Source: an uncultured Oscillospiraceae bacterium
GTDB lineage: Bacteria; Bacillota; Clostridia; Oscillospirales; Oscillospiraceae
DNA length: 33,820 nt
Reading direction: 5' to 3'
Assembly (NCBI GenBank): GCA_947624035.1
Contig: CANQIH010000004.1
Location: 1 to 33,820, forward strand
Shown: piece after piece, positions 7,809-33,820 of the stretch
How positions within the stretch are numbered: the first letter of the stretch is position 1
How the letters are laid out: every line of letters begins with the position of its first letter
The notes under the pieces: generated by a model
Databases searched by the model: none
Told to the model about the DNA's origin: nothing
The model's input: only the letters and a program-made list of their open reading frames with translations
Position numbers and translations under genes: made by a program

Positions 7809-7829
7809 ATTATGTAACCTCCTAAAAAG

Positions 7830-8587: not shown

Positions 8588-8648
8588 GTTATGAGACCCG
8601 TATGCCGGATGCAGCGTCTCCCCCTGCGCTGTCATCTGGATCTGCAAA

Positions 8649-8681: not shown

Positions 8682-8756
8682 ATATGGTTTTCCGCTTTCC
8701 CGCGCGCCGGCCCGGGACCCGCCCGGCGGCCCTCCGGCCGGAAACATACGTTCCCC

Positions 8757-8786
8757 TTGCCAAGACCGCCGGACCGCGCGTATAAT
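8757..8786 (+). promoter_or_regulatory. Promoter of the macro-domain gene
   Basis: TTGCCA (8757-8762), 18-nt spacer, TATAAT (8781-8786). The leader is short, and GGAGG lies 9 nt before the ATG at 8812. Confidence 0.7.
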
Positions 8787-8811
8787 GAAAAAAACGGAAG
8801 GAGGCGCGGCC

Positions 8812-15759: not shown

Positions 15760-15779
15760 CCTATCCCGCAAAATACACG

Positions 15780-15814
15780 GCCCCCGGCGCGGGATGACTG
15801 CCCGCGCCGGGGGC
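15780..15814 (+). terminator. GC-rich hairpin after the GTPase operon
   Basis: GCCCCCGGCGCGGG and CCCGCGCCGGGGGC form a perfect 14-bp stem with a 7-nt loop. No real T run follows, so termination efficiency is uncertain. Confidence 0.6.
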
Positions 15815-15830
15815 TCTCCATGATATGCCG

Positions 15831-15859
15831 TTGATTTTCGGCCGTCTTTCCGGTATTAT
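15831..15859 (+). promoter_or_regulatory. Promoter of the 373-aa gene
   Basis: TTGATT (15831-15836), 17-nt spacer, TATTAT (15854-15859), about 50 nt before the ATG. Confidence 0.65.
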
Positions 15860-15910
15860 AGCGTTATCGGTTTGTAGTGTTATCTATGCAGCGCTGAAAA
15901 GGGGCAAAGA

Positions 15911-17032: not shown

Positions 17033-17046
17033 ACAGCATACGAAAA

Positions 17047-17082
17047 TCGCCCCGGCGGGGATATCCCGCCGGGGCGGCTTTG
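17047..17082. terminator. Bidirectional terminator between the HTH gene and the kinase array
   Basis: CGCCCCGGCGGG and CCCGCCGGGGCG form a 12-bp perfect stem with a short loop, followed by GCTTTGTT on the right and preceded by GAAAAT on the left. Confidence 0.8.
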
Positions 17083-17102
17083 TTCTATTCTGTTTCCGGT
17101 GC

Positions 17103-20100
17103 TCAGGGCTGGATGATCGCCGGTTCGCCCTCCACGGTGTACCTGTCGGTGCCGTCGCCCCGCTCCGATATGATGAGCTCGCCGCTGTTCTGGATGGGCT
17201 GGGATATGTCGATATGGCCGCTTATCTCCATCCTGCTCCGGTTGACGATGGTCCCCTCGGAGGCGGTGCTGGCCGTGCCCCAGCCGCCGAACCACATGTG
17301 GCCGCCGTTGTCCAGCACGGTGTCCCCGTCCATGTACAGGTCCACCGCCTCGAACACCACCTCGCACTCCTCCTCCGTGGTGACGGTGCAGCCTCGCAGG
17401 GTGACGCCCGGGCTGGTGATCCGCACGCTGCCGTATCTCTCCGTCACGTCGATGGCGCAGCCGGTCAGCTCCGTGGGCCCGATGAGGTAGATCTCGCTGT
17501 TTTCCACCGTGAGGGCCATGTCCTCCGCGGCGAAAGCCAGGGTGCCGGGCAGCATGAAAAAGGCGTCCGCCGCCATGACGGCGGTCCCGTCCATATCAAG
17601 GCTCTCCAGCCGCTCCGGCACGAAGCTGGCGTATTCCATGGTCAGCCGGGCCCCGGACAGGTCAAGGCTCCTGCCCTCGCCGGTGAGGATGGCGTTGTCC
17701 GCCATATAGAGCTCGCCCCCGGCCGGCACTGTGAGAGACGACCCCTCCGTCATGAGAAGGCCCGCGCCGTGCAGCAGCCGCAGCTCCGCCGCCTCCAGGG
17801 ACCCCTCCCCGTACAGCACCAGCGCCGTGCCGCTGACGGTGATGGCCGCATCGGGCCCCGCCGTCACCGAGCCGCCGATGTAGAGGGGCTGCCCGATCTC
17901 GACAGGCCCCATGATAACGAGGTCCCCCGGGACGAATACAGCCTCGTCCCCCTCCAGGGCGGCGCGCAGCTCCTCCTCGGTCTGGACGGTGACAGTCCGC
18001 TCCGGCAGCCGTTCCGGCAGGGGCAGCGCCTGGCCGCAGAACCGCCAGTCGATGTTCTCCCCGCTCTCCGCGCTGATGACGCCGGGCCCGAACACCCGGC
18101 CATGCCAGACCGAGGCCCCGTCCTCCGCTGCCACCTCGCCGTGGCGGTTATAGACCGCGCCCAGATAGCTCTCCGCGCCATCGTCCAGCTGAAAGCAGCC
18201 GTCGTTGACCAGCCAGCCGTCGCTGCTGTAGTAGGCGCCGCCGCACACGGTGAAGGTGCCGCTGTTGTAGATGCTGGTGCCGTTGAGCGTGGAGAGGCAG
18301 GACTTCTGCTCGTCCCCCTCCTGGGGGGTGGGCAGGTCCATATCGCCCAGGTTCGAGATGCGGCCGCCTGTAGCGCTCATGTCGACCGTGGCAAGGCGCC
18401 CCAGATTCGTCAGCTGGGCGCCGGTCTCCAGCTCGCAGCCGCCCGCCGTGACCAGCTCGCCATAGTTGAGCAGGGTGCAGCCGCGCCCAAACTCCATGGT
18501 CAGGGCCCGGCCCTGGTCGGTGCAGCCGTCAAATCCGCCATAGTTGAGGACGGCGCTGTCCTCCGCCCGGATGCCGCAGAGAAGCTGGCCGCTGTTCACC
18601 AGTACGCTGTCACGGAGCTGCAGGCCCGCCTCGGTGTTTTCCGGCCACAGCACGCCGTCCTCGCCGATGAACAACGTCTTGCCGGAGATGTCGTACCATT
18701 GGGAGAGTGCGATGCTGCCCCGGATCATCAGCGTGTCGTGGAGCCGCAGCCCCTCGTTCAGGGTCCGCAGGTCCGTGACCTCGTAGGCCAGTTCCGCCTC
18801 CGGGCGGATCACCAGACGGCTGCCCAGGGTCTGGGCCAGCCTCTCGTCGTCGACCAGAAGGTTGGCCCGCTCATCCATGAGGAACACCGCCGTCTCCTCC
18901 CCCGCCGGGGACAGGCGGCCCTCCAGACGGAGCCGTTCACCGCTGCCCTCCAGGGTGACGAGGCCCCGGCAGTCCAGCGTCCCCTCCATCAGCAGGGTAC
19001 CGCCCTCCGGCACGGTGAGCAGGTTGGCGCAGAGCGTGGCGCCCTCCTCCACCAGCAGGGGCTTTTCCAGCACGGTGGTGTCGTTGTCCAGGGTGTTCAG
19101 GTCCAGGGTGGCGCCGCTGCGCAGGATGACGGACGGCACGGTCTCGTCATCCATGAGCTTCATGAGCTCGTCCCGGCTGTAGATGTCGTCCGCAAGCTCC
19201 GTGCCGCCCTCGAAGAGCCTGGACAGGCTCCGGTCCCCCCGGGCCGTCCCGGACCGGGGCCCCAGGGACAGGGCCACCGCGGCGGCCAGGCAGGCAGCGG
19301 CGGCGACGCCCAGGCCGCCCAGGACCCAGGCCCGGCGGCGGGACCAGCGTCCTGACCGGACCGGCGGCATATCCGGCCCGGTCTCCCACGGGGCCTCCTC
19401 CGCCATAGGCCCCTCCTTGTACAGGGCCCGCCGGAAGTCCTCCATGGACTGGAACCGGCGGCGGGTCTGGATGCGCAGGGCCTTGAGCAGCGCCAGCTCC
19501 TGCCGCTTGGTCAGCGGCGCGCCCAGCTTCGTGGGCAGCAGCAGTGTGTCCTCCGGCACCCGGTCCAGGGGCTGGGGCGGGGCCTTGCCGGTGAGCCCGA
19601 AGTAGATGGTGGCGCCCAAGGCGTACACGTCCGTCCAGGGCCCCTGGCCCTTCTGGCGGTACTGCTCGATGGGCGCGTAGCCGTGCTTGATGGCGATGGT
19701 CAAGGTCTCCTGGCCCTGGTCCGCCTCCCGGGCGCAGCCGAAGTCCAGAAGACGCATGGCCCCGTTTTCCAGCATCAGGTTGTCCGGGGAGATGTCCCGG
19801 TGGATGAGGCCGCTCTCGTGGAGCCCGCTCAGCGCCCGGAACACAGGCTCCATCAGGGGCAGCAGCTTCTCCGGCGCCATGGGGCCGTCCCGCTCCACGA
19901 TCTGCTTGAGGGTGACGCCCTCCACGTACTCCATGACGATGTAGGCGGTGTTGTTGGCCTCGAAGTGGTCCAGCACGCCCACGATGGCCGGCTGCTTCTC
20001 CAGCCGGGCCATGATCCGGGCCTCGTCCAGAAACCGCTGGCGGCCCCGCTCGAAGGTCTCCTTCGCGAGGCCGGTAAGGCTCACCAGGGACAGGGACGCG

Positions 20101-20363
20101 GCGCTGTTGCGGGTAGCCCTGTCCAGGGGGTAGTACTCCTTCACCGCGGCCTTCCGGGCCAGGCGGCGGTCGTAGGCCACATAGGTGATGCCAAAGCCGC
20201 CCTCGCCGATGACCCCGCCGACGGTGTACCGGCCCGCCAGGACCGTCCCCGGGGGCAGGTGGTGGGGCGACGGGACATAGGCCGCCGCCGGCTTTCCGCA
20301 GCGGGGGCACACCTCCGCCCCCTCCAGCGCCGTCATGCACCAGGGGCAGTATTCCATCTCCAT
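17103..20363 (-). CDS. Receptor-like Ser/Thr kinase A: zinc ribbon, kinase, TM, beta-solenoid ectodomain, 1086 aa
   Basis: ATG 20363 (MEMEYCPWC) follows GGAGG at 7 nt. Zinc ribbon 5-22 (YCPWC...CPRCG). Kinase about 42-310: GEGGFGITY P-loop, VKEYYP lysine, HRDISPDN loop, LLDFGCA (DFG), then APIEQY and DVYALGATIYFGLTG. Basic RRRAW precedes TM 345-367. The roughly 700-aa ectodomain carries repeated N-x-G rungs (LVNSGQL, VLNYGGF, LLNYGEL, LTNLGRL, ISNLGDM, IYNSGTF, LVNDGCF) and a C-terminal rung group. It is the most diverged member and has no Pro-Thr linker. It has its own promoter. Expected topology: kinase inside, sensor outside. Ligand and substrate unknown. Confidence 0.9.
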   Translation of the reverse strand: MEMEYCPWCMTALEGAEVCPRCGKPAAAYVPSPHHLPPGTVLAGRYTVGGVIGEGGFGITYVAYDRRLARKAAVKEYYPLDRATRNSAASLSLVSLTGLAKETFERGRQRFLDEARIMARLEKQPAIVGVLDHFEANNTAYIVMEYVEGVTLKQIVERDGPMAPEKLLPLMEPVFRALSGLHESGLIHRDISPDNLMLENGAMRLLDFGCAREADQGQETLTIAIKHGYAPIEQYRQKGQGPWTDVYALGATIYFGLTGKAPPQPLDRVPEDTLLLPTKLGAPLTKRQELALLKALRIQTRRRFQSMEDFRRALYKEGPMAEEAPWETGPDMPPVRSGRWSRRRAWVLGGLGVAAAACLAAAVALSLGPRSGTARGDRSLSRLFEGGTELADDIYSRDELMKLMDDETVPSVILRSGATLDLNTLDNDTTVLEKPLLVEEGATLCANLLTVPEGGTLLMEGTLDCRGLVTLEGSGERLRLEGRLSPAGEETAVFLMDERANLLVDDERLAQTLGSRLVIRPEAELAYEVTDLRTLNEGLRLHDTLMIRGSIALSQWYDISGKTLFIGEDGVLWPENTEAGLQLRDSVLVNSGQLLCGIRAEDSAVLNYGGFDGCTDQGRALTMEFGRGCTLLNYGELVTAGGCELETGAQLTNLGRLATVDMSATGGRISNLGDMDLPTPQEGDEQKSCLSTLNGTSIYNSGTFTVCGGAYYSSDGWLVNDGCFQLDDGAESYLGAVYNRHGEVAAEDGASVWHGRVFGPGVISAESGENIDWRFCGQALPLPERLPERTVTVQTEEELRAALEGDEAVFVPGDLVIMGPVEIGQPLYIGGSVTAGPDAAITVSGTALVLYGEGSLEAAELRLLHGAGLLMTEGSSLTVPAGGELYMADNAILTGEGRSLDLSGARLTMEYASFVPERLESLDMDGTAVMAADAFFMLPGTLAFAAEDMALTVENSEIYLIGPTELTGCAIDVTERYGSVRITSPGVTLRGCTVTTEEECEVVFEAVDLYMDGDTVLDNGGHMWFGGWGTASTASEGTIVNRSRMEISGHIDISQPIQNSGELIISERGDGTDRYTVEGEPAIIQP

Positions 20364-20396
20364 CGCCTCACCTCCTCACCTTCTCAGTTATACTTT

Positions 20397-20425
20397 ATTA
20401 TACCGTCTGTTGGCGTTTTTCTCAA
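20397..20425 (-). promoter_or_regulatory. Promoter of kinase A
   Basis: On the minus strand TTGAGA, 17-nt spacer, TATAAT, in the 63-bp gap behind kinase B. It lets kinase A be expressed apart from the other four. Confidence 0.75.
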
Positions 20426-20426
20426 C

Positions 20427-23400
20427 TCACTCGTCGTATATGGCGTGTTCTCCGACGACCTCCACGAGCTGCCCATCCCCGTGATAGTGCAGCTCGCCCC
20501 GGTTGAGGACCGGCAGTTTGACGTCCGTCTCCTCCGCCTCGGTCCAGTCCATATACCCCGCGTTGGTGATGTGGCTCTGGCGGTCCATGGTGATGGTGCG
20601 CTCCAGCCAGCCGTCGATACTGGCGTACCCGGCGTTATAGAGGGCGCTCCCGGCCAGCTCCAGTCTGGCGGGCCGGAGGACGATCGTACACCCCTCCGAG
20701 GCCGAGGAGATCTGGCTGTCCTGGAAGACGGCGCTCCGCCCCGCGACCTCCAGGATGCTCTCCTGATCCGGGCCGCTGACCGTGAGGTCGATGTCGGCCC
20801 CGTTCAGCCGGACCTCCCCCAGCAGGCGGACGGTGCTGTCCTCCGCCGAGATGGTCATGTCCCTGGCGGAGAACGCCTCGGACATGGGCGTCATGAACAG
20901 GGAGCGGGAGGCCGCCGTGACCTGGGCACTGTTCATGGCCAGGCTGTCCGCCCGCATGGGGATGAAGCAGGCGCGGTCACGGAGGGACACCTGGGCCCCT
21001 GTGAGGTCGATGCTGCCGCCGGCGGCGAACAGCGCGGAGGACTCCGCCTCCAGCGTCTCCGTCACCTTCAGGCTGCCGCCGCCGCTGACGCTGAGCTTGG
21101 CGAACCACCCGGTGCCGCTGTCCGCCTCCAGGCGGAGGTCGTCCGTCACCAGGCTGCCGCCCCCGCAGATGTACACCTGGCCGCCGGACACGGTGACCGA
21201 CGGCGCCGTGACCTTCCCGCAGATGTACAGCGTACCGGCCACCACCAGCCGCTGATTGAGCTCGATGTCCCGGACGACACGCCCCTTCTCGCCGGCGGCG
21301 GCGGAGGCCCAGAGGGCGTCCGCGCTCTCCACCACGGTGCAGTCAGCGGGTATGAGTCCCGCCTGGCTGTCCGTCTGGAAGGAGGCAAGGCTGTCCGTGG
21401 CCAGCCGGGCCGTGCCCGGGCCGTAGACCACCCCGGCGGGCCAGCTCTCCCCGCCCACGGTCACGGAGCCGTTCATGTTGTAGATGCTGCCCGCGCCATA
21501 GCCCAGGCCGTCCTGGATGTCGATGGTGCCGCCGTCGTTCACGGTCCAGCCGTACAGGTCCAGCTCCGAGCCCCGCTCACAGACTATCGTTCCGCTGTTG
21601 TAGAGGACGGAGTCCCACTCCGTGCCGAGGAGGGCCGCGTGGTCCATACCGCTGGCCTCCGACATCTCCGGCAGCAGGAGCCGGCCCAGATTCACCATAT
21701 CGGCGCCCACCATGTACATATCCCGCGCCGTGACCGTCCCGGTGTTCAGCAGCAGGCCGTCGTCCCATATCCGGGCGAAGAGGTCCTGCTCCAGGTCGCC
21801 GAAGTTCAGCAGCAGGACGCCGCCCTCCAGATAGTATCCCTCCGTATGGCTGTCGAAGGGCTCGATGGAGCCGTAATTATAGATGACCGTGTCGTCGTCG
21901 GCCCAGATCGCCGCCCGGATCGTCCCGCAGTTCACCAGGGTGCAGTGTCCGTCGCCGTAGCTTTCAAAGCACAGCGTGGACTCTCCTCCCGAATCACGGC
22001 CGCGTACGCGCACCGTCACGCCCTCGCTGACCCACACGTACGCACAGTCGAAGGTATAGTCTGCAGGCAGGCTGATGCTCTGGTCGATGGAGATCGGCTT
22101 GCCGGAGGCCACGGCGGCGGCCAGGTCCTCCACCGCGGTGACGGAGACGGCGTTTTCCGGCTTCCGGGGCGTGATCTGCACATGGGTGCCCATGCGCCCC
22201 AGAAGGCCGCTGTCCGCCAGGGCCAGGTTCTGCCCGTCGTCCATGAGGATGACGGCGCAGTCCTGCCCCTCGCCGGTGAGGCCGCCGGTCTCATTCACAT
22301 ATAGCCGCGTGCCGCTGCCCTCCAGGGTGATGAGGCCCCGGCAGTCCAGTGTGCCGTCCACCTGCAGGGCGGAGCCGTCGGGCACGCGCAGGTGGTTGGC
22401 CCGCAGCGCGGCGCCCTCCCTCACCAGCAGGGGCTTTGGGAGGACGTACTCGCCGCTGCCGCCCGCGTTCAGGTCCAGCACCGCGCCCGCCTCCAGGGCC
22501 ACGGCCTTGACGCCGTCGCTCTCCATGAGGCTCTCCAGGTCGTCCCGGCCGTAGACGCCGGCGGCGATGGTCTGGGCGTTATCGAAAGTGTTCTCTTTCA
22601 GGGCCTTGCCGCTGCCCGGGTCGTGGACGGCGGAGTCCGGATGGCTGTCGCGCCAGGACAAAAAGCCCAGCACGCCCGCCACAAGCGCCACGGCGGCCAG
22701 GCTCAGGACGGCCCAGAGGCCGGTGCGGCGGCCGGATCGCTTCTGCTGCTGCTTTTGCTGCTTCTCCTGCTGCTTCTGCTGCCGGGCCTCCTGCTCCTGG
22801 CGTTTTTTCTCCTCGGCGGCCCGGCGGCGCTCCTCCTCCAGCCGCTTTTTCTCCCGGGCCTGCTCCTCCCGGCGGCGAAGCTCCTCCTTCTCCTCCGGGA
22901 ACAGGCCGTCGTACAGCGCGTCGTGCAGGTCCTCCATGGACTGGAGCCGCCCCTGGGGCGCGGCGTTCATGCCCCGCAGCAGCGCCTTTTCCTCCGTCTC
23001 CGTCAGCGCCGCCCCCAGCTTGATGGGCAGCATCAGCGTGTCCTCCACCAGCCGGTCCGGGGCCCGGGGCGGCACCACGCCGGTGAGGCAGTAGTATATC
23101 GTCGCGCTCAGGGCGTACACGTCCGTCCAGGGGCCCTGGCCCTTCTGGCCGTACTGCTCCATGGGGGCATAGCCGTGCTTGAGGGTCACGGTCTGGGTCT
23201 CGCTGCCCTCCGCCTCCCGGGCGCAGCCGAAGTCCAGCAGCCGGGCGCGGCCGTCCTCCACCATGATGTTGTCCGGGGAGATGTCCCGGTGGATGAGCCC
23301 GGTCTTATGGAGCGTGGCCAGCGCCCCGAATATGGGCTCGATGAGCGGCAGCAGCTCCCCCGGCGGGATGTGGCCCCGCCGCTCGGTCATGGTCTTGAGG

Positions 23401-23852
23401 GTCACCCCGTCCACATATTCCATGACGATGTAGGCGGTGTTGTTGGCCTCAAAAAAGTCCTGTACGGTGACGATGGCCGGCTGCTTCACCATCCGGGCCA
23501 TGATCTGGGCCTCCTTGAGGAACCGCTGCTTGCCCTTCTCATAGCTCTTGGCCTGTGGCCCGATGGGGCTCGTGACCACCACCGATACGGTGGCGTCCCG
23601 GCTCACCTTGTCCCGGGGGTAGTACTCCTTCACGGCCACCCGGGTCTCCAGACGCCGGTCCAGGCCTATGTAGGTGATGCCGAAGCCCCCCTCGCCCAGG
23701 ACCCCGCCGACGGCATACCGGTCCGCCAGTACCGTGCCCGGCTGCAGATGGTGGGGCTGGGGCATATAGTCCGCCAGTGCCCTGCCGCACTTGGGACACG
23801 TGTGCCCCTCCCCCGCCGGGGCCATGCAATACGGGCAGTATTTCTTATCCAA
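20427..23852 (-). CDS. Receptor-like Ser/Thr kinase B with coiled-coil juxtamembrane, 1141 aa
   Basis: The ORF opens at ATG 23873 (overlapping the previous TGA). I prefer TTG 23852: GGAGG lies exactly 8 nt before it, and it aligns with the ATG of kinase A (M-x-x-x-YCP). Zinc ribbon, then kinase about 45-315 (GEGGFGITY, AVKEYYP, HRDISPDN, DFGCA, APMEQY). Unlike C, D and E, the cytoplasmic juxtamembrane part (about 318-385) is a Glu/Arg then Gln/Lys-rich coiled coil (KKRLEEERRRAAEEKKR), suggesting dimerisation. TM about 386-406 (LWAVLSLAAVALVAGVLGF). The ectodomain has seven ordered N-x-G rungs (LVNCGTI to TVNDGGT) plus a C-terminal set. Part of its kinase DNA is identical to kinase C. Confidence 0.88.
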   Translation of the reverse strand: MDKKYCPYCMAPAGEGHTCPKCGRALADYMPQPHHLQPGTVLADRYAVGGVLGEGGFGITYIGLDRRLETRVAVKEYYPRDKVSRDATVSVVVTSPIGPQAKSYEKGKQRFLKEAQIMARMVKQPAIVTVQDFFEANNTAYIVMEYVDGVTLKTMTERRGHIPPGELLPLIEPIFGALATLHKTGLIHRDISPDNIMVEDGRARLLDFGCAREAEGSETQTVTLKHGYAPMEQYGQKGQGPWTDVYALSATIYYCLTGVVPPRAPDRLVEDTLMLPIKLGAALTETEEKALLRGMNAAPQGRLQSMEDLHDALYDGLFPEEKEELRRREEQAREKKRLEEERRRAAEEKKRQEQEARQQKQQEKQQKQQQKRSGRRTGLWAVLSLAAVALVAGVLGFLSWRDSHPDSAVHDPGSGKALKENTFDNAQTIAAGVYGRDDLESLMESDGVKAVALEAGAVLDLNAGGSGEYVLPKPLLVREGAALRANHLRVPDGSALQVDGTLDCRGLITLEGSGTRLYVNETGGLTGEGQDCAVILMDDGQNLALADSGLLGRMGTHVQITPRKPENAVSVTAVEDLAAAVASGKPISIDQSISLPADYTFDCAYVWVSEGVTVRVRGRDSGGESTLCFESYGDGHCTLVNCGTIRAAIWADDDTVIYNYGSIEPFDSHTEGYYLEGGVLLLNFGDLEQDLFARIWDDGLLLNTGTVTARDMYMVGADMVNLGRLLLPEMSEASGMDHAALLGTEWDSVLYNSGTIVCERGSELDLYGWTVNDGGTIDIQDGLGYGAGSIYNMNGSVTVGGESWPAGVVYGPGTARLATDSLASFQTDSQAGLIPADCTVVESADALWASAAAGEKGRVVRDIELNQRLVVAGTLYICGKVTAPSVTVSGGQVYICGGGSLVTDDLRLEADSGTGWFAKLSVSGGGSLKVTETLEAESSALFAAGGSIDLTGAQVSLRDRACFIPMRADSLAMNSAQVTAASRSLFMTPMSEAFSARDMTISAEDSTVRLLGEVRLNGADIDLTVSGPDQESILEVAGRSAVFQDSQISSASEGCTIVLRPARLELAGSALYNAGYASIDGWLERTITMDRQSHITNAGYMDWTEAEETDVKLPVLNRGELHYHGDGQLVEVVGEHAIYDE
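23198..23514. repeat. Kinase-core tract identical to 26581-26897 (copy 1)
   Basis: 317 nt within the kinase B catalytic region match kinase C base for base, at a constant offset of 3383. Flanks differ on both sides. This indicates recent gene conversion or recent duplication. Confidence 0.8.
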
Positions 23853-23869
23853 CGTCTCCGCCTCCCCCG

Positions 23870-26800
23870 TCATACCTTGGGTTCGATATATCCGTAGTTC
23901 TCCACCGGCTGATGCAGATCTCTCTCGCCGAAGAGATACATCTCGCCGTGATTCGTGATCCGGGCGCTGTCGCCGGTGGTCAGGCTGCTCTCCTGCCGCC
24001 AGCCGCCAAAGCTCGTAAAGCCGTAGTTCACAAGCTGGGTCTCACCGCGCAGGAAGGTATCGGCATGATCAAAGCTCAGCGTGCAGCTGCCTACGTCCGT
24101 TCCCTCCGCGCCCACTGTGATGCCGCTGCTCCCCTCAAAGACGTTCGTCTTCCCGAGGCACAGAAGGCGGCTGTCCCCGTAATAGCCTGTATAGCGCACC
24201 GAGACGGACCCGTCCGTCAGCGAAACACCGCCAGGCAGACTCGCATGGCTGTCCTCCACCGTGAGGGCGAGCCCCGCCGCCGTGAGGGGCGTCCCGCTCG
24301 GCATGCAGAGCCAGGAGGCGGAATACACGCCCACGCTGGCGCCGTCCAGGCCGGTCACCTCCGCCCCCGCAGGGAGGAAGCACCCGCCGTTTCGCAGGAG
24401 CACGGCCGCGCCGCTCAGCGCCAGCGTGCCGCCCTCGCCGTAGAGGATCGACCCGCTCACGGTCAGGGAGCCTGTCACCTTCAGCGAGGCGTTCCGGGCA
24501 AGGAACAGCTCCGCGCCGCCGCCAAGGCTCAGTTCCTCCGTCTCCAGGCTCCCGCCCTCGCACAGGACGAGCATGGAGCCGCTCACGGCGGCCGAGGGCG
24601 CCTTGATGGACCCAGCCACGTACAGCGGCGCCGTCACCGCCAGGGGCTCCGTGAGCTCCACGTCCCCCGTCAGGAGCACCGGGCCGCCGGCCGCCAGGGC
24701 GGAGAGCAGCGTCTGTCCGTCCGCCGCCGGGGCCGCGCCGGCCTTCGCGGCGTCGGTCTCCCCGGTCCGGCGGACATGCCCGTCCTGCTCCTGGGCCGCT
24801 GCCTCCACGGCGCCCGGGCCGTATATGAGCTCGGGCAGCCAGGCGGTCTCCGCCGCCGTGACCGTCCCGCCGCGCAGGTTGTACACCGCGCCGTCGAGAC
24901 CGCCGCTGATATCCACCTGGCCGCCGTCGTTCCACAGCCAGCCGGACACGATCGCCGTCGCGCCCTCGTCCACGGTCATCCGGCCGCTGTTGTACATCGC
25001 GGCGCCGTTGGCCACCGTCAGGCCATCGCCATTGGTATCCACGGAAACAGTCAGCTGTCCCAGATTCACGAAGCCAGCGCCCATCTGCTCGAAGTCATAG
25101 GCGCAAAACTGCCCCGCGTTGACCAGCAGCGCCTCGCCGCTCATGCGGGAGCGCAGGGTGGCGTCGATCTCGCCAAAGTTCAGCACCAGCGCCCGGCCAT
25201 CCAGGGCCATGCCCGTGCCGTTGCCCATGTTTTCGTTATAGACGCCGTAGTTATAGACGGCCGCGCCGCCCTTGATGCCGCCCTGGATGGTCCCCTCGTT
25301 CACCAGCACGGACCCCTCGTCCAGGCACAGAGTCCCCATGCGGTCATTCCACCTGTTCACGACGTCGGTACGGCGCACCGTCACGCCCACGCTGACCCAG
25401 ACGGTCTTGCCGCGGCCCCAGAGCTCCTCGCCGTAGATATCGATGCTCTTGTCGATGGAGACCGCCGTCACCGTCTCGTCCGCAAAGGCGGCCTGGAGCT
25501 CCTTGAAGCTGGTGACGGACGTCATATCCGCCGGCCGCCGGGGCACGATCTGTATATGGCCGCCCAGGCGCTCCGTCAGGGCCCCGTCTGCCACGGACAG
25601 GGCCGTCCACTCGTCCATAAGGAACACGGCGCAGCGCTCCGCCTGCTCCGTGAGCGCGCCGGTCTGGCCGATGCTGAGCCTGGTGGTCCCACCCTCCAGG
25701 GTGATGAGGCCCCGGCAGTCCAGGGTACCGTCCACCTGCAGGGCGGCGCCGTTGGGGATGCGCAGCCAGTTGGCCCGGAGGGTGGCCCCCTCCTTCACCA
25801 GCAGGGGCTTCGCGAGGCGGTACTCGCCCTCTCCGCCCCCGTTCAGGTCCAGCGTGGCCCCCGCCTCCAGGGCGATGGCCCCGACGGACCCGTCGCGCAT
25901 GAAGCCCGCCACGTCTCCGGCGTCGTAATAGCCCGCCGGGAGGGTCTTGACATTCTTATGCGCGCTCAGGTCCAGCGGCTGGCCGCTGCCCGGGGCCGGT
26001 GTGGGCTTGGGCGTGGGCTCTGCCGTGGGCGCCGGGGTGGGCTCCGCCGTGGGCACAGGTGCGGGCGAGGCGGCCGGCTCTCCGCCGCCGCGGCTGAACC
26101 AAAGGACCGCCGCGGCGATGGCCGCCAGCGCCAGGACCACGGCCACGATGGCGCCCGTCTTTTTCCGGGGCCTCGGCTGGGGCTTTGGCGCGGGTACGAT
26201 AGGCTCCGGCTCATGTATAGGCTCAGGTATCACGGGCTCCGGCCCGGGGCCCTGATCGGGCTTCGGTCCCGGCTCCAGCGGGAAAACGCCGTTATAGAGC
26301 GCGTCATAAAGCTCCCTCACGGACTGGAACCGGCCCTGTGGCATCACATTCATGCCCCGCAGCAGCGCCCTTTCCTCCGTCTCCGTCAGCGCCGCCCCCA
26401 GCTTGATGGGCAGCAGCAGCGTGTCCCCCATCACCCGGTCCGGGGCCCGGGGCGGCACCACGCCCGTGAGGCAGTAATATATCGTCGCGCTCAGGGCGTA
26501 TACGTCCGTCCAGGGGCCCTGGCCGCCCTGGCTGTACTGCTCCATAGGCGCGAAGCCGTGCTTGAGTGTCACGGTCAGCGTCTCGCTGCCCTCCGCCTCC
26601 CGGGCGCAGCCGAAGTCCAGCAGCCGGGCGCGGCCGTCCTCCACCATGATGTTGTCCGGGGAGATGTCCCGGTGGATGAGCCCGGTCTTATGGAGCGTGG
26701 CCAGCGCCCCGAATATGGGCTCGATGAGCGGCAGCAGCTCCCCCGGCGGGATGTGGCCCCGCCGCTCGGTCATGGTCTTGAGGGTCACCCCGTCCACATA

Positions 26801-27235
26801 TTCCATGACGATGTAGGCGGTGTTGTTGGCCTCAAAAAAGTCCTGTACGGTGACGATGGCCGGCTGCTTCACCATCCGGGCCATGATCTGGGCCTCCCGG
26901 AGGAACCGCTGCCTGCCCTTCTCATAGCTCTTGCCCTGAAGTCCGATGGGGCACGTGATGGCCGCGGAGGCGGTGGCGTCCCGGCTCACCTTGTCCCGGG
27001 GGTAGTATTCCTTCACGGCCACCCGGGTCTCCAGACGCCGGTCCAGGCCTATGTAGGTGATGCCGAAGCCCCCTTCGCCCAGGACCCCGCCGACGGCGTA
27101 CCGGTCCATGAGCACCGTGCCCGGCTGCAGATGGTGGGGCTGGGGCACGTAGTCCGCCAGCGCCTTTCCGCACCTGGGGCACGTGTCATCCTCCCCCGCC
27201 GGGGCCATGCAATACGGGCAGTATCTCTTATCCAA
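23870..27235 (-). CDS. Receptor-like Ser/Thr kinase C, 1121 aa
   Basis: The preferred start is TTG 27235, 8 nt after GGAGG and aligned with kinase A; ATG 27250 is the alternative. Zinc ribbon, kinase about 45-315 with the same motif set, then a Pro/Glu-rich cytoplasmic stretch (EPIHEPEPIVPAPKP), basic RPRKK, TM about 358-378 (TGAIVAVVLALAAIAAAVLWF) and an outside Pro/Thr linker (PTAEPTPAPTAEP). Ectodomain rungs run LVNEGTI, VYNYGVY, VLNFGEI, LVNAGQF, FVNLGQL, MYNSGRM, LWNDGGQ, then a terminal group LVNYGF, ITNHGE, VENYGY. It sits 17-18 nt from both neighbours, so it is in an operon. Confidence 0.88.
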   Translation of the reverse strand: MDKRYCPYCMAPAGEDDTCPRCGKALADYVPQPHHLQPGTVLMDRYAVGGVLGEGGFGITYIGLDRRLETRVAVKEYYPRDKVSRDATASAAITCPIGLQGKSYEKGRQRFLREAQIMARMVKQPAIVTVQDFFEANNTAYIVMEYVDGVTLKTMTERRGHIPPGELLPLIEPIFGALATLHKTGLIHRDISPDNIMVEDGRARLLDFGCAREAEGSETLTVTLKHGFAPMEQYSQGGQGPWTDVYALSATIYYCLTGVVPPRAPDRVMGDTLLLPIKLGAALTETEERALLRGMNVMPQGRFQSVRELYDALYNGVFPLEPGPKPDQGPGPEPVIPEPIHEPEPIVPAPKPQPRPRKKTGAIVAVVLALAAIAAAVLWFSRGGGEPAASPAPVPTAEPTPAPTAEPTPKPTPAPGSGQPLDLSAHKNVKTLPAGYYDAGDVAGFMRDGSVGAIALEAGATLDLNGGGEGEYRLAKPLLVKEGATLRANWLRIPNGAALQVDGTLDCRGLITLEGGTTRLSIGQTGALTEQAERCAVFLMDEWTALSVADGALTERLGGHIQIVPRRPADMTSVTSFKELQAAFADETVTAVSIDKSIDIYGEELWGRGKTVWVSVGVTVRRTDVVNRWNDRMGTLCLDEGSVLVNEGTIQGGIKGGAAVYNYGVYNENMGNGTGMALDGRALVLNFGEIDATLRSRMSGEALLVNAGQFCAYDFEQMGAGFVNLGQLTVSVDTNGDGLTVANGAAMYNSGRMTVDEGATAIVSGWLWNDGGQVDISGGLDGAVYNLRGGTVTAAETAWLPELIYGPGAVEAAAQEQDGHVRRTGETDAAKAGAAPAADGQTLLSALAAGGPVLLTGDVELTEPLAVTAPLYVAGSIKAPSAAVSGSMLVLCEGGSLETEELSLGGGAELFLARNASLKVTGSLTVSGSILYGEGGTLALSGAAVLLRNGGCFLPAGAEVTGLDGASVGVYSASWLCMPSGTPLTAAGLALTVEDSHASLPGGVSLTDGSVSVRYTGYYGDSRLLCLGKTNVFEGSSGITVGAEGTDVGSCTLSFDHADTFLRGETQLVNYGFTSFGGWRQESSLTTGDSARITNHGEMYLFGERDLHQPVENYGYIEPKV
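26581..26897. repeat. Kinase-core tract identical to 23198-23514 (copy 2)
   Basis: Second copy of the 317-nt identical tract, in kinase C. It covers the region encoding the VQDFFEANN to REAEGSET segment, including HRDISPDN. Confidence 0.8.
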
Positions 27236-27253
27236 CGCCTCCGCCTCCATTCA

Positions 27254-30200
27254 TCAGAACTCCCTGTACTCCGCCGGTATGCCCTTGACCACGCTTGGAT
27301 CAAAGTCGGGATAGTTGTAGAAAAAGCTGCCCCGGTTGTCCACGGGCTGGACCAGGTCCGCCTCCATGGAGAAGAAGATGGTCCCGTTGTTGACGAAGGA
27401 CGCCTCAGCGTCTCCCGTCATATGATAAGCCCCCCAGCCGTCAAAGTTCATCTGGCCGTTGTTCACGATCTGGGTGTTCCCATTCAGCTCCACGTCCGCA
27501 AACTGCGACCACAGGCCGCAGTTGGTCCCCTCCAGGGTGATGGCGCAGCTGTCGAAGGCCAACCGGTCCCCGGTGAACACCAGGCCGGCGCTGTCCTCCC
27601 AGGTGCTCCGGTCCGTGATGGAGGAGCCGGCCAGCTCCACGGGGCCAAAGGCCCAGAATTCTCCGTCCTCCACAGTCATCACAAGGCCGCTGGCGGAGAA
27701 GGTCATATCCCCGGGTGTTGTAAAGATAGAGCCAGTCGCCAGCCTCAGCCGGGTCCTGTCCATGGACAGCCCCTCCAGCTTTCGGAGCGCGAAGGCGCTG
27801 TCGTACGCAATATCGAGGATGGCTCCCGACAGGTCCACGGCGCCGCCGCCGGCGTAGAGGGCCGCGCCGGTCATCCCCATGGAGCCGGTCACGGTCAGGC
27901 CGGCGCCCTTCGTCAGGATCAGCCAGGCCGTCTCCGCCATATCGCCCGTGTCGTTCACGGCGGCCAGGGCCTCCGCCTCCAGGCTGCCGCCCTCGCACAG
28001 GGTCAGCTGCGTGCGGTACACCGTGAGGGCGGACGCCTTCAGCCGCCCGGCCACGTACACCGGCGCCGTCAGCGTCAGGGGCTCGGACACGGTCAGATCG
28101 TCCCGGAGCAGCACCGTCATCCCTGCCTGCTCGGCCTGCCGCAGGGAGGCCTCGTCGTGGACCTCCACGGCGTTCGCCGGCACAGAGCCATCGGTCAGGT
28201 TCGGGTAGAAGGACATATTTACATCCTCCCTGCCCTTCTCCGCCGTGCCGGGGCCGCAGATCAGTCCGGAGCTGCCGCCCTCCACATAGCAGCGGCCGCT
28301 GAAGTCGTTGTAGACGCTGCCGCGCAGGAAGCCGCCGTCCTTCACATCCACCGTGCCCCGGTTGACCATCCAGCCATGTACAGTCACGCTGCTGGTATCC
28401 TCCACCGTAAAGGTGCCGCTGTTATAGATCCCGGCGCCGTGGAAGGTCTCGAGCCGGTGCCAGCCGGCGAGTCCGCCCACGGTCACCTGGCCCAGGTTCA
28501 CCATATCCGCGTCCGTCAGAAAGCAGTCTGCGAGGCCGATCTCGCCTGCGTTGAGCAGGAAGCTGTTCTCACTGAGGTCAAAGGACCGTTGGTACCTGAT
28601 CTGGCCAAAGTTCAGCACCAGCGACATGCCCACGCCCCAGGATACGCTCTCGCTGGCCGGATCGCTCATAACGCCGTAGTTGTAGATCGCAGACCTTCCC
28701 TCTATACAGATGCAGCTGTTGACGGTCCCCTCGTTCACCAGGACCGCCCCAGGGAGATTCGGGTGTTCAAATAAGGTGTCCGGGTCGATCATGTTGATAT
28801 ATCCGCCGCCCTCATTTTCGGAGGTAACGTTGAGCGTCACGCCTTCGCTGACCCACACCGTCTTTCCGGAGCTGATGGCCAGCCCTTCTGTGGCGGTGAT
28901 ATCCCCGTCCACGGAGATGGCGGTCACCTTCTCGTCCTCCAGCGCCTCAAGGAGCTGGTCCAGGGTGGTGACGGACAGGATGTCCTCCGGCCGCCGGGGC
29001 ATGATCTGCATATGGCCGCCCAGGTGCCGGCGGAGGTTCGTGTCCGCCACGGACATGGCCTCGCCGGAGTCCATGAGGAACACCGCGCAGCGCTCCGACT
29101 CCTCGGGAAGGCCGCCGGTCTTGCTTATGCTGAGCTTCGTCTCCTCGCCCTCCAGGGTCACCAGGCCCTGGCAGTCCAGCTGCCCGTCCACCTGCAGGGC
29201 GCCGTCCCCGGATATGCGCAGCCAGCTGGCCCGGAGCGCGGCCCCCTCCCCCACCAGCAAGGGCTTTGTGAGGGTGTACTCGCCCTCTCCGTTCAGGTCC
29301 AGCACAGCCCCGTCCGCCAGGGCGACGACCCCAACGGAATCGTCGTTCATCAAGTCCTCCACGTCCGCGGCGGTGTAGCTGCCCGCCGGGAGGGTGTGGA
29401 TATCCTCATAGGCGCCCAGGTCCAGGGGCTGGCCCCGTCCAGGGGCCGGGGTGGGCGGCGGCGTGGGTTCCGGCGTGGGCTCCGGGGTGGGCGTGGGCTC
29501 CGCCGTAGGCTCCGGGGTGGGCGTGGGTCTGAGAGATGCCAGCCCCCCGCGGCTGAACCAGAACACCGCTGCCGCGATGACCGCCAGCGCCAGGACCGCC
29601 GCCACGACGGCGCCCGTCTTCTTCCGGGGCTTGGGCTCCGGCTTTGGCATGGGCTTGGGCTCCGGCTCGGATACTATAGGCTCCGGCTCGGGTATAGGCT
29701 TTGGTATTATGGGCTCCGGTCCAGGCTCCGGCTTGGGTACCGGCTCTTTTGGGACCTTCTTCGCCGGGAACACGCCGTTGTAGAGGGCGTCATAGAGCTC
29801 TCTCACGGACTGGAACCGGCCCCGGGGCAGCACGCTCATGCCCCGCAGCAGCGCCTTTTCCTCCGTCTCCGTGATGGCCGCCCCCAGCTTGATGGGCAGC
29901 ATCAGCGTGTCCTCCACCGCCCGGTCCGACGCCCGGGGCGGCACCACGCCGGTGAGGCAATAGTATATCGTCGCGCTCAGGGCGTACACGTCCGTCCAGG
30001 GCCCTTGCCCGCCCCGGCCGTACTGCTCTATGGGCGCGAAGCCCTGCTTGAGGGTCACGGTGAGGGTCTCGCTGCCCTCCGCCTCCCGGGCGCAGCCGAA
30101 GTCCAGAAGCCGGATGTGCCCGTGCTCCACCATGATGTTGTCCGGGGAGATGTCCCGGTGGATGAGCCCGGCCTCATGGAGCGTGGCCAGCGCGCCGAAC

Positions 30201-30721
30201 AGCGGCTCGACCATGGGCAGCAGCTCTCCGGGCGGGATGTGGCCCCGCTGCTCCGTCATCTCCTTGAGGGTCACCCCGTCCACGTACTCCATGACGATGT
30301 AGGCGGTGTTGTTGGCCTCAAAGAAGTCCCGGACCGTGACGATGGCGGGCTGCTTCACCATTTTGGCCATGACCTTGGCCTCCCGGAGGAAGCGCTGCTT
30401 GCCCTTCTCGTAGCTCTGGGCCTGGGGCCCGATGGGCCCCGTGACCGCCACGGAGGCGGTGGCGTCCCGGCTCGCCTTGTCCCGGGGATAGTATTCCTTG
30501 ATGGCCACCCGCATCTCCAGCCGCCGGTCCAGGCCTATGTAGGTGATGCCGAAGCCGCCCTCGCCCAGGACCCCGCCAATGACATACCGGTCCCGGAGCA
30601 CCGTGCCCGGCTGGAGATGGGACGGCTGGGGCTCATACCCCGCCGCCGTCTTCCCGCACTTGGGGCATACGCCGTCCTCCCCCACCGGGGCCATGCACCA
30701 GGGACAATACCTCTTTTCCAA
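27254..30721 (-). CDS. Receptor-like Ser/Thr kinase D, 1155 aa
   Basis: The ORF is open to 30838, but the extension overlaps kinase E. ATG 30739 has no SD; TTG 30721 has GGAGG exactly 8 nt upstream and aligns with the other starts, so it is used. Zinc ribbon YCPWC...CPKCG; kinase about 45-315 (HRDISPDN, DFGCA, APIEQY). The cytoplasmic stretch is full of KPEPGPEP-type repeats, then RKK, TM about 378-398 (GAVVAAVLALAVIAAAVFWF) and an outside PTPEPTAEPTP linker. The ectodomain has rungs LVNEGTV, IYNYGVM, VLNFGQI, LLNAGEI, MVNLGQV, IYNSGTF, MVNRGTV, and the terminal group IVNNGQ, FVNNGT, VDNRGS. Closest relative of kinase E. Confidence 0.88.
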   Translation of the reverse strand: MEKRYCPWCMAPVGEDGVCPKCGKTAAGYEPQPSHLQPGTVLRDRYVIGGVLGEGGFGITYIGLDRRLEMRVAIKEYYPRDKASRDATASVAVTGPIGPQAQSYEKGKQRFLREAKVMAKMVKQPAIVTVRDFFEANNTAYIVMEYVDGVTLKEMTEQRGHIPPGELLPMVEPLFGALATLHEAGLIHRDISPDNIMVEHGHIRLLDFGCAREAEGSETLTVTLKQGFAPIEQYGRGGQGPWTDVYALSATIYYCLTGVVPPRASDRAVEDTLMLPIKLGAAITETEEKALLRGMSVLPRGRFQSVRELYDALYNGVFPAKKVPKEPVPKPEPGPEPIIPKPIPEPEPIVSEPEPKPMPKPEPKPRKKTGAVVAAVLALAVIAAAVFWFSRGGLASLRPTPTPEPTAEPTPTPEPTPEPTPPPTPAPGRGQPLDLGAYEDIHTLPAGSYTAADVEDLMNDDSVGVVALADGAVLDLNGEGEYTLTKPLLVGEGAALRASWLRISGDGALQVDGQLDCQGLVTLEGEETKLSISKTGGLPEESERCAVFLMDSGEAMSVADTNLRRHLGGHMQIMPRRPEDILSVTTLDQLLEALEDEKVTAISVDGDITATEGLAISSGKTVWVSEGVTLNVTSENEGGGYINMIDPDTLFEHPNLPGAVLVNEGTVNSCICIEGRSAIYNYGVMSDPASESVSWGVGMSLVLNFGQIRYQRSFDLSENSFLLNAGEIGLADCFLTDADMVNLGQVTVGGLAGWHRLETFHGAGIYNSGTFTVEDTSSVTVHGWMVNRGTVDVKDGGFLRGSVYNDFSGRCYVEGGSSGLICGPGTAEKGREDVNMSFYPNLTDGSVPANAVEVHDEASLRQAEQAGMTVLLRDDLTVSEPLTLTAPVYVAGRLKASALTVYRTQLTLCEGGSLEAEALAAVNDTGDMAETAWLILTKGAGLTVTGSMGMTGAALYAGGGAVDLSGAILDIAYDSAFALRKLEGLSMDRTRLRLATGSIFTTPGDMTFSASGLVMTVEDGEFWAFGPVELAGSSITDRSTWEDSAGLVFTGDRLAFDSCAITLEGTNCGLWSQFADVELNGNTQIVNNGQMNFDGWGAYHMTGDAEASFVNNGTIFFSMEADLVQPVDNRGSFFYNYPDFDPSVVKGIPAEYREF

Positions 30722-30749
30722 CGCCTTTGCCTCCCTCATGTTTTTTTGA

Positions 30750-33700
30750 TCAGCCGCCGTCGTATACCGGCGCCGCGCCCTCGACCTTGCCGGCGTCGAA
30801 GCCGAGTCTGTCGTAGTAGAACTGGCCTCGGTTGTCAATGGCCCGGGACAGCTCCGCCGGCATATAGAGCCTGAACTCCCCGTTGTTGACGATGGACGTC
30901 TCCGCGCCCGTCTTCAACAGAAAGTCGTCCCAGCCGTTAAAGCTCATCGAACCGCTGTTCACGATCCGGGTGCTGCCCTTCAGCTCCACGTCCGTAAAGT
31001 CCGTTACAAAGGAGCAGCCGGGCCCCTCCAGGGTGATGGCGCAGCTGTCGAAGACCGCCCGGCCTCCGGCGAACATCTGCGTGGTGTACCACTCCTCTGT
31101 GACCCGGGCCGTGATGGAGGAGCCTGTCAGCTCCACAGGGCCGAAGGCCGTGAACTCCCCGCCCTCCGCCGTCACCACAAGGCCGCTGGCGGAGAGGGTC
31201 ATATTCCCGGGCGTTATAAAGCCGGAGGCCTCGTTCAGTGTCAGCTGGGTCCTGTCCATGGACAGCTTATCCAGCCGCCGGGGCGCGAAGATGCTGCCGC
31301 CCGCCGCGGTGAGGCTGGCCCCGGACAGGTCCACCGTGCCGCCGTCGGCGTAGAGGAACGCGCCGTTCATCCCCATGGAGCCGGTCACCTTCAGGCTGGC
31401 GCCCTCCGTCAGGCGCAGCCAGGGCGTCCGCGCTATATCGCCCGTGTCGTTGACGATGGTCAGGTCCTCCGCCTCCAGGCTGCCGCCCGCGCAGACCGTC
31501 ACCGGCGCATGGTACGACGTGAGGGCGGATGCCTTCAGCCGTCCGGCCACGTACAGCGGCGCCGTCAGCTCCAGGGGCTCGGACACGGTCAGATCGTCCC
31601 GGAGCAGCACTGTCATCCCGGCGCTCTGGGCCTGCCGCAGAGCGGTCTCGTCGTGGACCTCCACGGCGCTCACAGGTACAGTTCCGGCCGTCAGGTTCGG
31701 GAAGAAGGGCGAGTGTATCACGCCCTCCGGCCCGGGCATCTCCACCGCGCCGGGGCCGCAGACGATGCCGGAGCTCCCGCGGCCGAACATGGCCTCTTCT
31801 TCGCCCCGGACGGTGCCGTTCACGTCGTTATAGACGCAGCCGAACAGGTGGCCGCCGGCCTTCACGTCCACCGTGCCCCGGTTGACCAGCCAGCCGAAGA
31901 GATCCACACAGCCATTGTGTTCCACCGTGAACGTGCCTCTGTTATAGATGACGCCGCCGCCGTAGCTGCCGCATTCGGTCCCCCACTCGCAGGAAGACTC
32001 GCTGGCGGTCAGCTGACCCAGGTTCGCCATATCCGTGCCCATCATATAGAAGTGGAGGGCGTTGAACTGGCCCACGTTGACCAGGAAGCTGTCATCCCAG
32101 AACCGGGAGCACCAGTCGGCCTTGATCTGGCCAAAGTTCAGCATCAGCGTCCGGCCCTCGTACCAGGCCCCGCCATAGGATTTGGTCTCGTCTATGACGC
32201 CGTAGTTGTAGATCACGGCGCTGTCCGTGCCATTGAGGGAGCCAATGACCGTTCCCTCGTTCACCAGGATCGGGTAGTCGCTGAGAGGGCCGCCCAAGCC
32301 GAGCGCGTGGCCGATGGCGCCGGTGCACGTCACCGTCACACCCTCGCTGACCCACACCGTCTTTCCCGCATCGATACCCATCTCATCGCCGGAGATGGTG
32401 ATATCCCCGTCCACGGAGATGGCGGTCACGCTCTCGTCCCGCAGCGCACTGCGGAGCTCCTCCCGGGTGGTGACAGACAGGATGTCCTCCGGCCGCTGGG
32501 GCACGATCTGCATCTGCACGCAGCTGTCCAGGCGCGTGCGGAGATCCCTGTCCGCCACGGCCATGGCAGCGCCCGAGTCCATGAGAAACACCGCGTGCTC
32601 CTCCGACTCCTCCGTGAGGCCGCCGGTCTTGCTTATGCTGAGCCTTGTGTCCTCACCCTCCAGGGTCACCAGGCCCTGGCAGTCCAGCTCTCCGTCCAGC
32701 TGCAGGGCGCCGTCCCCGGATATGCGCAGCCAGCTGGCCCGGAGGGTGGCCCCCTCCCGCACCAGCAGGGGTTTTGTGAGGGTGTACTCGCCCTCTCCGT
32801 TCAGGTCCAGCACAGCCCCGTCCGCCAGGGCGATGACCCCAACGGAATCGTCGTTCATCAAGTCCTCCACGTCCGCGGCGGCGTAGCTGCCCGCCGGGAG
32901 CGTTTTGGCGTCCTCATAGGCGCCCAGGTCCAGGGGCGCGCCGCTGCCCGGGGCCGGGGTGGGCGACGGGGTGGGCTCCGGCGTGGGCCGGGGCGTGGGG
33001 GTGGGCTCCGCCGTGGGCGCCGGGGTGGGCGTGGGCTTGAGAGAGGCCAGCCCCCCACGGCTGAACCAGAACACAGCCGCCAGCGCCAGGACCACGGCCA
33101 CGACGGCCCCCGTCTTTTTCCGGGGCTTGGGCGCGGGTCTCGTCTCCGGCTTGGGCTCCGGCTTTGGCGTGGGCTCATTCTCCGGCGTGACCGTCTGCGT
33201 GTGCTCCAGGACGGCCGCAGGCTCCGGGCCGGGGACCGGTCCGGGGGCAGGCGCCTCCAGGATCTTCTCCAGGGGGAACACGCCGTTATAGAGGGCGTCA
33301 TATAGCTCCTTCACAGTCTGGAACCGGCCCTGGGGCAGCACGCTCATGCCTGTCAGCAGCGCCTTCTGCTCCGTCTCCGTGATGGCCGCTCCCAGCTTGA
33401 TGGGCAGCATCAGCGTGTCGCCCACCATCCGGTCCGACGCCCGGGGCGGCACCACGCCCGTGAGGCAATAATAGATGGTGGCGCTCAGGGCGTACACGTC
33501 CGTCCAGGGCCCTTGCCCGCCCTGACCGTACTGCTCCATGGGGGCGAAGCCCTGCTTGAGCGTCACGGTGAGGGTCTCGCTGCCCTCCGCCTCCCGGGCG
33601 CAGCCGAAGTCCAGAAGCCGGATGTGCCCGTCCTCCACCATGATGTTGTCCGGGGAGATGTCCCGGTGGATGAGCCCCGTCTCATGGAGCGTGGCCAGCG

Positions 33701-33820
33701 CGCCGAACAGCGGCTCGACCATGGGCAGCAGCTCCCCGGGCGGGATGTGGCCCCGCTGCTCCGTCATCTCCTTGAGGGTCACGCCCTCCACAAATTCCAT
33801 GACGATATAGGCGGTGTTGT
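30750..33820 (-). CDS. Receptor-like Ser/Thr kinase E, partial (5' end off the window)
   Basis: The frame stays open to the right edge (NTAYIV before MEFVEGVTLKEM), so the ORF-track start at 33800 is internal. The zinc ribbon, P-loop and catalytic Lys lie outside the window. Visible: HRDISPDN, LLDFGCA, APMEQY, DVYALSATIYYCLTG; a Pro/Glu-rich cytoplasmic stretch, KPRKK, one TM (TGAVVAVVLALAAVFWF), an outside PTPTPAPTAEPTP linker, then the ectodomain with rungs LVNEGTV, IYNYGVI, MLNFGQI, LVNVGQF, ANLGQL, IYNRGTF, LVNRGTV and terminal IVNSGS, IVNNGE, IDNRGQ. It ends 28 nt before kinase D, so it is the upstream visible gene of the operon. Confidence 0.88.
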   Translation of the reverse strand, partial: NTAYIVMEFVEGVTLKEMTEQRGHIPPGELLPMVEPLFGALATLHETGLIHRDISPDNIMVEDGHIRLLDFGCAREAEGSETLTVTLKQGFAPMEQYGQGGQGPWTDVYALSATIYYCLTGVVPPRASDRMVGDTLMLPIKLGAAITETEQKALLTGMSVLPQGRFQTVKELYDALYNGVFPLEKILEAPAPGPVPGPEPAAVLEHTQTVTPENEPTPKPEPKPETRPAPKPRKKTGAVVAVVLALAAVFWFSRGGLASLKPTPTPAPTAEPTPTPRPTPEPTPSPTPAPGSGAPLDLGAYEDAKTLPAGSYAAADVEDLMNDDSVGVIALADGAVLDLNGEGEYTLTKPLLVREGATLRASWLRISGDGALQLDGELDCQGLVTLEGEDTRLSISKTGGLTEESEEHAVFLMDSGAAMAVADRDLRTRLDSCVQMQIVPQRPEDILSVTTREELRSALRDESVTAISVDGDITISGDEMGIDAGKTVWVSEGVTVTCTGAIGHALGLGGPLSDYPILVNEGTVIGSLNGTDSAVIYNYGVIDETKSYGGAWYEGRTLMLNFGQIKADWCSRFWDDSFLVNVGQFNALHFYMMGTDMANLGQLTASESSCEWGTECGSYGGGVIYNRGTFTVEHNGCVDLFGWLVNRGTVDVKAGGHLFGCVYNDVNGTVRGEEEAMFGRGSSGIVCGPGAVEMPGPEGVIHSPFFPNLTAGTVPVSAVEVHDETALRQAQSAGMTVLLRDDLTVSEPLELTAPLYVAGRLKASALTSYHAPVTVCAGGSLEAEDLTIVNDTGDIARTPWLRLTEGASLKVTGSMGMNGAFLYADGGTVDLSGASLTAAGGSIFAPRRLDKLSMDRTQLTLNEASGFITPGNMTLSASGLVVTAEGGEFTAFGPVELTGSSITARVTEEWYTTQMFAGGRAVFDSCAITLEGPGCSFVTDFTDVELKGSTRIVNSGSMSFNGWDDFLLKTGAETSIVNNGEFRLYMPAELSRAIDNRGQFYYDRLGFDAGKVEGAAPVYDGG

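Follow-up and report, generated by a model that had tools for sequence, protein, structure and literature searches.

Bacterial receptor kinases of known structure mostly sense the cell wall via PASTA domains. The PASTA kinases (PknB, PrkC, StkP and Stk1) resemble the kinase array described here in having a cytosolic Hanks-type kinase, one transmembrane segment (TM), an extracellular sensor and a PP2C partner; the array differs from them by a zinc ribbon, a 720-aa solenoid, tandem copies, FHA and HtrA proteins and a convergent partner gene. The logic of kinase, PP2C and FHA found in the array's gene module is also that of the type VI secretion threonine phosphorylation pathway PpkA-PppA-Fha, but the hosts of the array are Gram-positive clostridia with no type VI genes.

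Another case is known from Planctomycetota, whose membrane kinases bear arrays of WD40 or TPR repeats (PMC11032199). As with the array, TM Ser/Thr kinases that expose long repeat domains on the non-cytosolic side have expanded in a lineage-specific way; however, the repeats of Planctomycetota lie within single proteins and adopt other folds, and no such conserved module accompanies them. In the accessible part of a paper on GAP1-N2 systems (PMC7159879), a zinc-ribbon kinase is combined with PP2C and vWA proteins, but these are GTPase-centred conflict systems of actinobacteria only, and that part reports neither a solenoid nor an array, the FHA/HtrA order or a convergent partner. Conversely, no GTPase of the GAP1-N2 kind was noticed in the module of the array. 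Clusters of solenoid adhesins are also known (PMC9210967). The adhesive solenoids of PF20585 and the binding region of L. reuteri SRRP are likewise extracellular, pectate-lyase-like and from gut Firmicutes, and are distant kin of the array ectodomains in sequence and fold, but they are secreted or wall-anchored adhesins, whereas in the array the solenoid serves as sensor for a kinase. The individual parts of the array are thus of known kinds, and the novelty lies in their combination. The initial annotation knew of no described family with this architecture, and no published description of the architecture or the combination was found in Pfam, NCBIfam and the openly accessible part of the literature.

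Organization of the Kinase Array

The window, i.e., the whole stretch of 33,820 nucleotides that was analysed, corresponds to contig C4 of a 2.1 Mb MAG assembly (75% complete) from an uncultured Oscillospiraceae bacterium of the gut. The following features were considered:

15911..17032, plus strand: convergent partner, 373 aa, predicted all-alpha, XRE-like helical repeats suggested
17047..17077: terminator hairpin between K1 and the partner, strong, bidirectional, z -4.42
17103..20363, minus strand: K1, 1086 aa; zinc ribbon, Ser/Thr kinase, TM and solenoid; ectodomain about 17103-19250
20397..20425, minus strand: sigma-70-like promoter upstream of K1, 11/12 matches, consensus match only
20427..23873, minus strand: K2, 1148 aa; common architecture and a cytosolic coiled coil; ectodomain about 20427-22616
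23870..27250, minus strand: K3, 1126 aa; common architecture and a Pro/Thr-rich outer linker; ectodomain about 23870-25978
27254..30739, minus strand: K4, 1161 aa from ATG 30739; common architecture; ectodomain about 27254-29437
30750..33818, minus strand: K5, 1022 aa visible, cut within the kinase domain where the contig ends; common architecture; ectodomain about 30750-32957

The five tandem receptor-like Ser/Thr kinases proposed in the initial annotation were confirmed as five same-strand genes filling positions 17103-33818, transcribed in the direction from K5 to K1 and all matching Pkinase PF00069 (Pfam profiles, E 4e-21 to 1e-33). K1-K4 have the full set of Hanks-type motifs (the Gly loop, the VAIK Lys, the HRD Asp and the DFG Asp), and K5 shows the C-terminal half of the kinase only. 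The zinc ribbon expected in the four receptors with visible N-termini was present as CPxC..CPxC knuckles with weak Pfam scores, the N-terminus of K5 being off the contig; N-terminal CxxC..CxxC knuckles precede the kinase in K1-K4 and in most clostridial zinc-ribbon kinase relatives. Each receptor has a single hydrophobic segment followed by 721-766 aa, in agreement with the one TM and outside domain of about 700 aa proposed earlier. As for the supposed Pro-rich or coiled-coil juxtamembrane part, a coiled coil was seen in K2 only, on the cytosolic side, and a Pro/Thr-rich stretch was found as the outer linker of K3.

Chance open reading frames are excluded by the presence of five long homologous frames with ectodomain identities of 33-61% and coding-type third-position GC. 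The GC content of the array is 0.65-0.71, and the long plus-strand frames across it were dismissed as high-GC shadows. For K4, the homologous ATG at 30739 is the likely start rather than the listed TTG at 30838, which would give 1194 aa and overlap K5. Membership of the PASTA kinases was also rejected, since there is no PASTA match in the array and the NF033483 scores of 98-181 bits lie below the cut-off of 450.

The genes are separated by 10 bp (K5-K4) and 3 bp (K4-K3), overlap by 4 bp at an ATGA (K3-K2), and are 63 bp apart at K2-K1. Based on the short gaps from K5 to K2 (10, 3 and -4 bp), these four genes probably form one transcript, and several specificities are then probably displayed together. 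K1 may be transcribed from its own start as well, given the promoter-like sequence upstream. On its other side, 70 bp containing the terminator hairpin separate K1 from the end of the partner gene.

Elsewhere in the window, positions 1-8470 contain a late prophage end with an endolysin (6734-7543), a holin (7530-7811) and several PHROG unknowns. It adjoins a tRNA-Lys at 2-77, and its GC content is 0.47-0.53 over most of its length, against 0.65-0.71 in the array. A secreted SLH and transglutaminase-like protein with Pro/Thr repeats is encoded at 11055-13334. Its neighbours are a VWA gene at 9942 and CobW-type GTPase genes at 13583 and 14815.

Fold and Divergence of the Ectodomains

Based on an alignment of 31 ectodomains (18-39% identity to that of K2), AlphaFold2 predicted a beta-solenoid made nearly entirely of beta strand (pLDDT 90.5, pTM 0.91), which bears out the fold suggested from the letters alone. 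The top PDB fold matches were all beta-helices, namely Ag43, PL6 alginate lyases, TibA and tailspikes; their global TM scores were low, which is to be expected when long solenoids differ in twist, so that the fold class is supported and no specific relative is. The adhesive domain PF20585 (Pectate_lyase_5) was matched by 12 of the 31 ectodomains, the best being a relative (E 3.8e-12), and the ectodomains of the window stayed under the Pfam gathering score (18.0-21.8 bits vs. 24.3). The solenoid is distantly related to this named adhesive family, a link that the initial annotation had missed. The invariant columns among the 31 sequences are structural G and N only, forming an N-x-G ladder, with no conserved catalytic-looking residue, which supports a binding role over catalysis. 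Kinase-less secreted or lipoprotein solenoids matching the ectodomain profile occur at L135:5567-9484 (E 7e-21) and L136:6794-10417 (E 8e-13), and such proteins are a possible source of the receptor ectodomain.

The kinship to adhesive solenoids also fits a reading in which adhesion comes first: the solenoids would serve mainly for attachment to fibre, mucin or neighbours, and occupancy would be reported by the kinase to the envelope machinery, much as PASTA kinases do for the state of the wall, with no dedicated transcription output. By inspection of the sequences, related zinc-ribbon kinases bear PASTA-like, LRR-like or MORN-like outsides, which speaks for the same reading.

The claim that the kinase is conserved and the ectodomain divergent held up in both comparisons made. 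Among pairs of K2-K5, the kinases share 82-93% identity and the ectodomains 36-61%, with dN/dS of 0.21-0.43 and 0.85-1.06, respectively; ectodomain values between array paralogs overall were 0.8-1.2. The cleanest control was provided by L038 and L062, two rabbit-gut MAGs in which dS is similar in the kinase and ectodomain parts; their orthologs gave dN/dS of 0.19-0.29 for the kinase, 0.56-0.80 for the ectodomain and 0.15 for the partner. It should be noted that absolute dN/dS values are rough, being Nei-Gojobori counts on alignments of diverged solenoids. Between array paralogs, the kinases are under constraint and the ectodomains are not. For K2/K3, the kinase parts gave a dS of 0.14 and the ectodomains one of 0.68; the kinase halves were therefore probably homogenised by recombination, or the ectodomains exchanged. 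In no pair was dN significantly above dS, the last part of K4/K5 included (1.26, bootstrap P(dN>dS) 0.93), and positive selection on the ectodomains was dropped for this reason.

Ectodomains diversifying to tell kin from competitors, as in self/non-self or allorecognition, would agree with dN/dS near 1 in the array, with the homogenised look of the kinases and with the presence of the self-associating adhesin Ag43 among the top fold matches. We consider this quite improbable, because no ratio significantly exceeds 1 and ortholog ectodomains keep the values given above. In addition, no free-standing solenoid ligand of the array type was found in the genome (5/5 matches were the array itself), and the close spacing of the genes speaks for co-expression and not for alternative use.

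The Conserved Clostridial Module

Through a genome-wide search, 80 loci in clostridial genomes were collected. A common gene order was seen in 14 solenoid loci, namely FHA, zinc-finger/weak FHA, PP2C, PP2C, HtrA-like protease/FHA, short zinc-ribbon kinase and solenoid receptor kinase, the first FHA gene (often with DUF805) being off the contig or missed in some of them. Most loci have one receptor copy; there are three tandem copies each in L038 and L062 and at least five in the window. The proposal of a shared output with diversified input agrees with the divergence pattern but had missed that the receptor is usually a single-copy member of a module with FHA, PP2C, HtrA/FHA and partner genes; overall, the interpretation in the initial annotation is partly supported.

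In the genome of the window, contig C94 carries the upstream part of the module, running from a DUF805-FHA gene through those for a zinc-finger protein, a pair of PP2Cs, HtrA/FHA and a short TM kinase. These are followed by a pseudokinase-like copy that lacks both DFG and the Gly loop, and by the first 95 residues of an array-type kinase. C94 hence adds three zinc-ribbon kinases of the same operon to those of C4, the last one cut by the contig end. The last 61 bases of this cut N-terminus are identical to a copy on C4. The array thus very probably continues onto C94. From the gene order in relatives, we infer that C94 precedes C4, with a gap of about 132 bp if the cut gene is K5, although additional copies may lie in between; no end sequence is shared between the K5 start and C94.

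In the ectodomain tree, K1 falls together with the terminal receptors of L038 and L062 (support 100/99), and K2-K5 form a separate clade (95/95), which points to a lineage-specific expansion. K1 is the ancestral last receptor, adjoining the convergent partner gene. Judging from the sequences, the array arose when the gene at the end of this clostridial module was multiplied in one lineage.

In L038 and L062, the middle receptor has lost the Gly loop, and NFA replaces DFG, with the VAIK-type Lys retained; this pair is under purifying selection (dN/dS 0.29). Having lost motifs yet being under purifying selection, they look like conserved pseudokinase receptors. Pseudokinase-like array members lacking the Gly loop and DFG are located at L038:3257-6604, L062:6672-9911 and L025:6811-7797. 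Such copies, seen on C94 and in L038/L062, together with ectodomain dN/dS near 1 between array paralogs, would also be expected of decaying duplicates whose ectodomains drift neutrally after duplication. This is highly unlikely, as all five frames are open over more than 1000 codons, the N-x-G ladder is invariant in the 31 sequences, the catalytic motifs of K1-K4 are intact, and even the pseudokinase receptor is kept by purifying selection.

Counted across genomes of the family, as the initial annotation had suggested, solenoid receptor kinases are patchy (3/151). At the class level, few hits were seen among 391 genomes, with at least six for A3 and at least six for A4, which are lower bounds from the few candidates scored. 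The congener G095 (97% complete) has no solenoid receptor kinase. At E<=1e-10, the genome of the window encodes 16 kinases, compared with 2 in the congener and 0-9 across 120 further genomes of the family. The species therefore shows an unusual expansion of kinases, to which the array belongs. The other kinases of this genome carry RCC1 repeats, LytR-CpsA-Psr, NPCBM, InlB-type repeats, SH3 or TPR; those with TM and RCC1, LytR-CpsA-Psr, NPCBM, SH3 or TPR are found in L019-L027, often beside PP2C. Also, L019 contains WXG100-like small proteins and a large ATPase-like frame (by eye) at about 15687-19998, a possible type VII secretion locus, and PP2C and kinases on the same contig.

The Convergent Partner

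Searches of Pfam, NCBIfam, PADLOC and PHROGs assigned the partner to no family. Its model is all-alpha (pLDDT 85, pTM 0.83), and neither Foldseek nor a PDB sequence search gave a match. Homologs, mostly 45-69% identical, occur in most solenoid loci, convergent to the last kinase and usually less than 250 bp away. Considering loci with enough downstream sequence, the partner stands beside the last receptor in 18/22 solenoid loci and in 6/46 other zinc-ribbon-kinase loci (Fisher p 4.7e-8, a descriptive value, since loci picked for their resemblance to the query form no random or independent sample). With a dN/dS of 0.15 between L038 and L062, the partner is the most conserved element.

Relatives of about 145 aa matching the N-terminal part of the partner, with an XRE-like look by eye, adjoin Hanks kinases in L148-L151 but not in L152 (4/5 contigs). 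No HTH profile was matched by the partner of the window; among 25 members, a single one gave a weak match to Pfam HTH_31 (E 0.067), the best obtained. We read the family as putative kinase-linked regulators that are probably DNA-binding and may be of the helix-turn-helix type, as judged from motif resemblance and weak matches. A conserved Thr of the partner was left out as an FHA docking site because the model puts it in a helix. The C-terminal 134 aa of a macro-domain protein at 8602-9918 of the window resemble the XRE-like N-terminal part of the partner (hhalign E 0.0027, probability 11%).

Signaling from adhesive solenoids to the envelope machinery would also agree with the presence of HtrA/FHA and PP2C in the module. 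However, the partner tracks the solenoid kinase type and is the most conserved element, which argues for a dedicated output, and a role centred on adhesion appears unlikely.

Distant partner homologs (20-34% identity) adjoin kinase-NACHT/NB-ARC proteins in L129 and L132 and a kinase in L131; that in L130 has no kinase nearby, and a weaker match in L133 lies in a PP2C/VWA/kinase cluster. The kinase-NACHT and kinase-NB-ARC-TPR proteins concerned are located at L129:8344-12138 and L132:5517-8534. This neighbourhood and the scores of the kinase domains with the PADLOC models PD-T4-6 and mad6 could suggest anti-phage or intracellular-conflict signaling, with the kinases as part of a defence cassette. 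We regard this as very unlikely: the PADLOC matches are confined to the kinase part, with none for the partner or PP2C, and reflect the generic kinase fold, the sensor is extracellular, and the module holds no other defence gene. Membership of the MADS/PD-T4-6 defence kinases was likewise rejected, as the NCBIfam MADS6 model (NF047741) gave 108-124 bits for K1-K4 against a cut-off of 460.

Proposed Signaling Pathway

Based on the above results, we suggest as the fairly likely reading that the array encodes surface-binding receptors feeding one phospho-signaling hub and a dedicated regulator, with the array as a lineage-specific expansion. Like adhesive pectate-lyase-like solenoids, those of the array would attach to a target on a surface or in a matrix, a polysaccharide or glycoprotein being the likeliest, and binding or clustering would alter kinase activity. 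The resulting phosphothreonines would be read by the FHA domains of the module and erased by its two PP2C proteins. The convergent partner would be the dedicated output, a transcription regulator of the helix-turn-helix type controlled by phosphorylation or by an FHA complex. Kinase and partner would be kept because of the common output, and ectodomain copies would diverge, widening the range of ligands. Such a phospho-relay from solenoid to regulator is the most economical reading, as the writer, reader, eraser and candidate output are encoded together.

More tentatively, and with considerable doubt, the data might reflect an undescribed pathway in which fast-diverging solenoid receptor kinases, some in tandem and some pseudokinases, signal through the FHA/PP2C/HtrA hub to a new regulator family that also serves cytosolic kinase-NACHT/NB-ARC sensors, giving one output for surface and internal surveillance.

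If the proposed relay is true, these bacteria would possess a class of receptors apparently made for reading gut surfaces, whose paralogs differ on the outside only. A full writer-reader-eraser set would be encoded beside these receptors, and the candidate output would belong to a conserved protein family that is new. The partner would also offer a function-linked handle on an unannotated family adjoining both membrane kinases and kinase-NACHT proteins.
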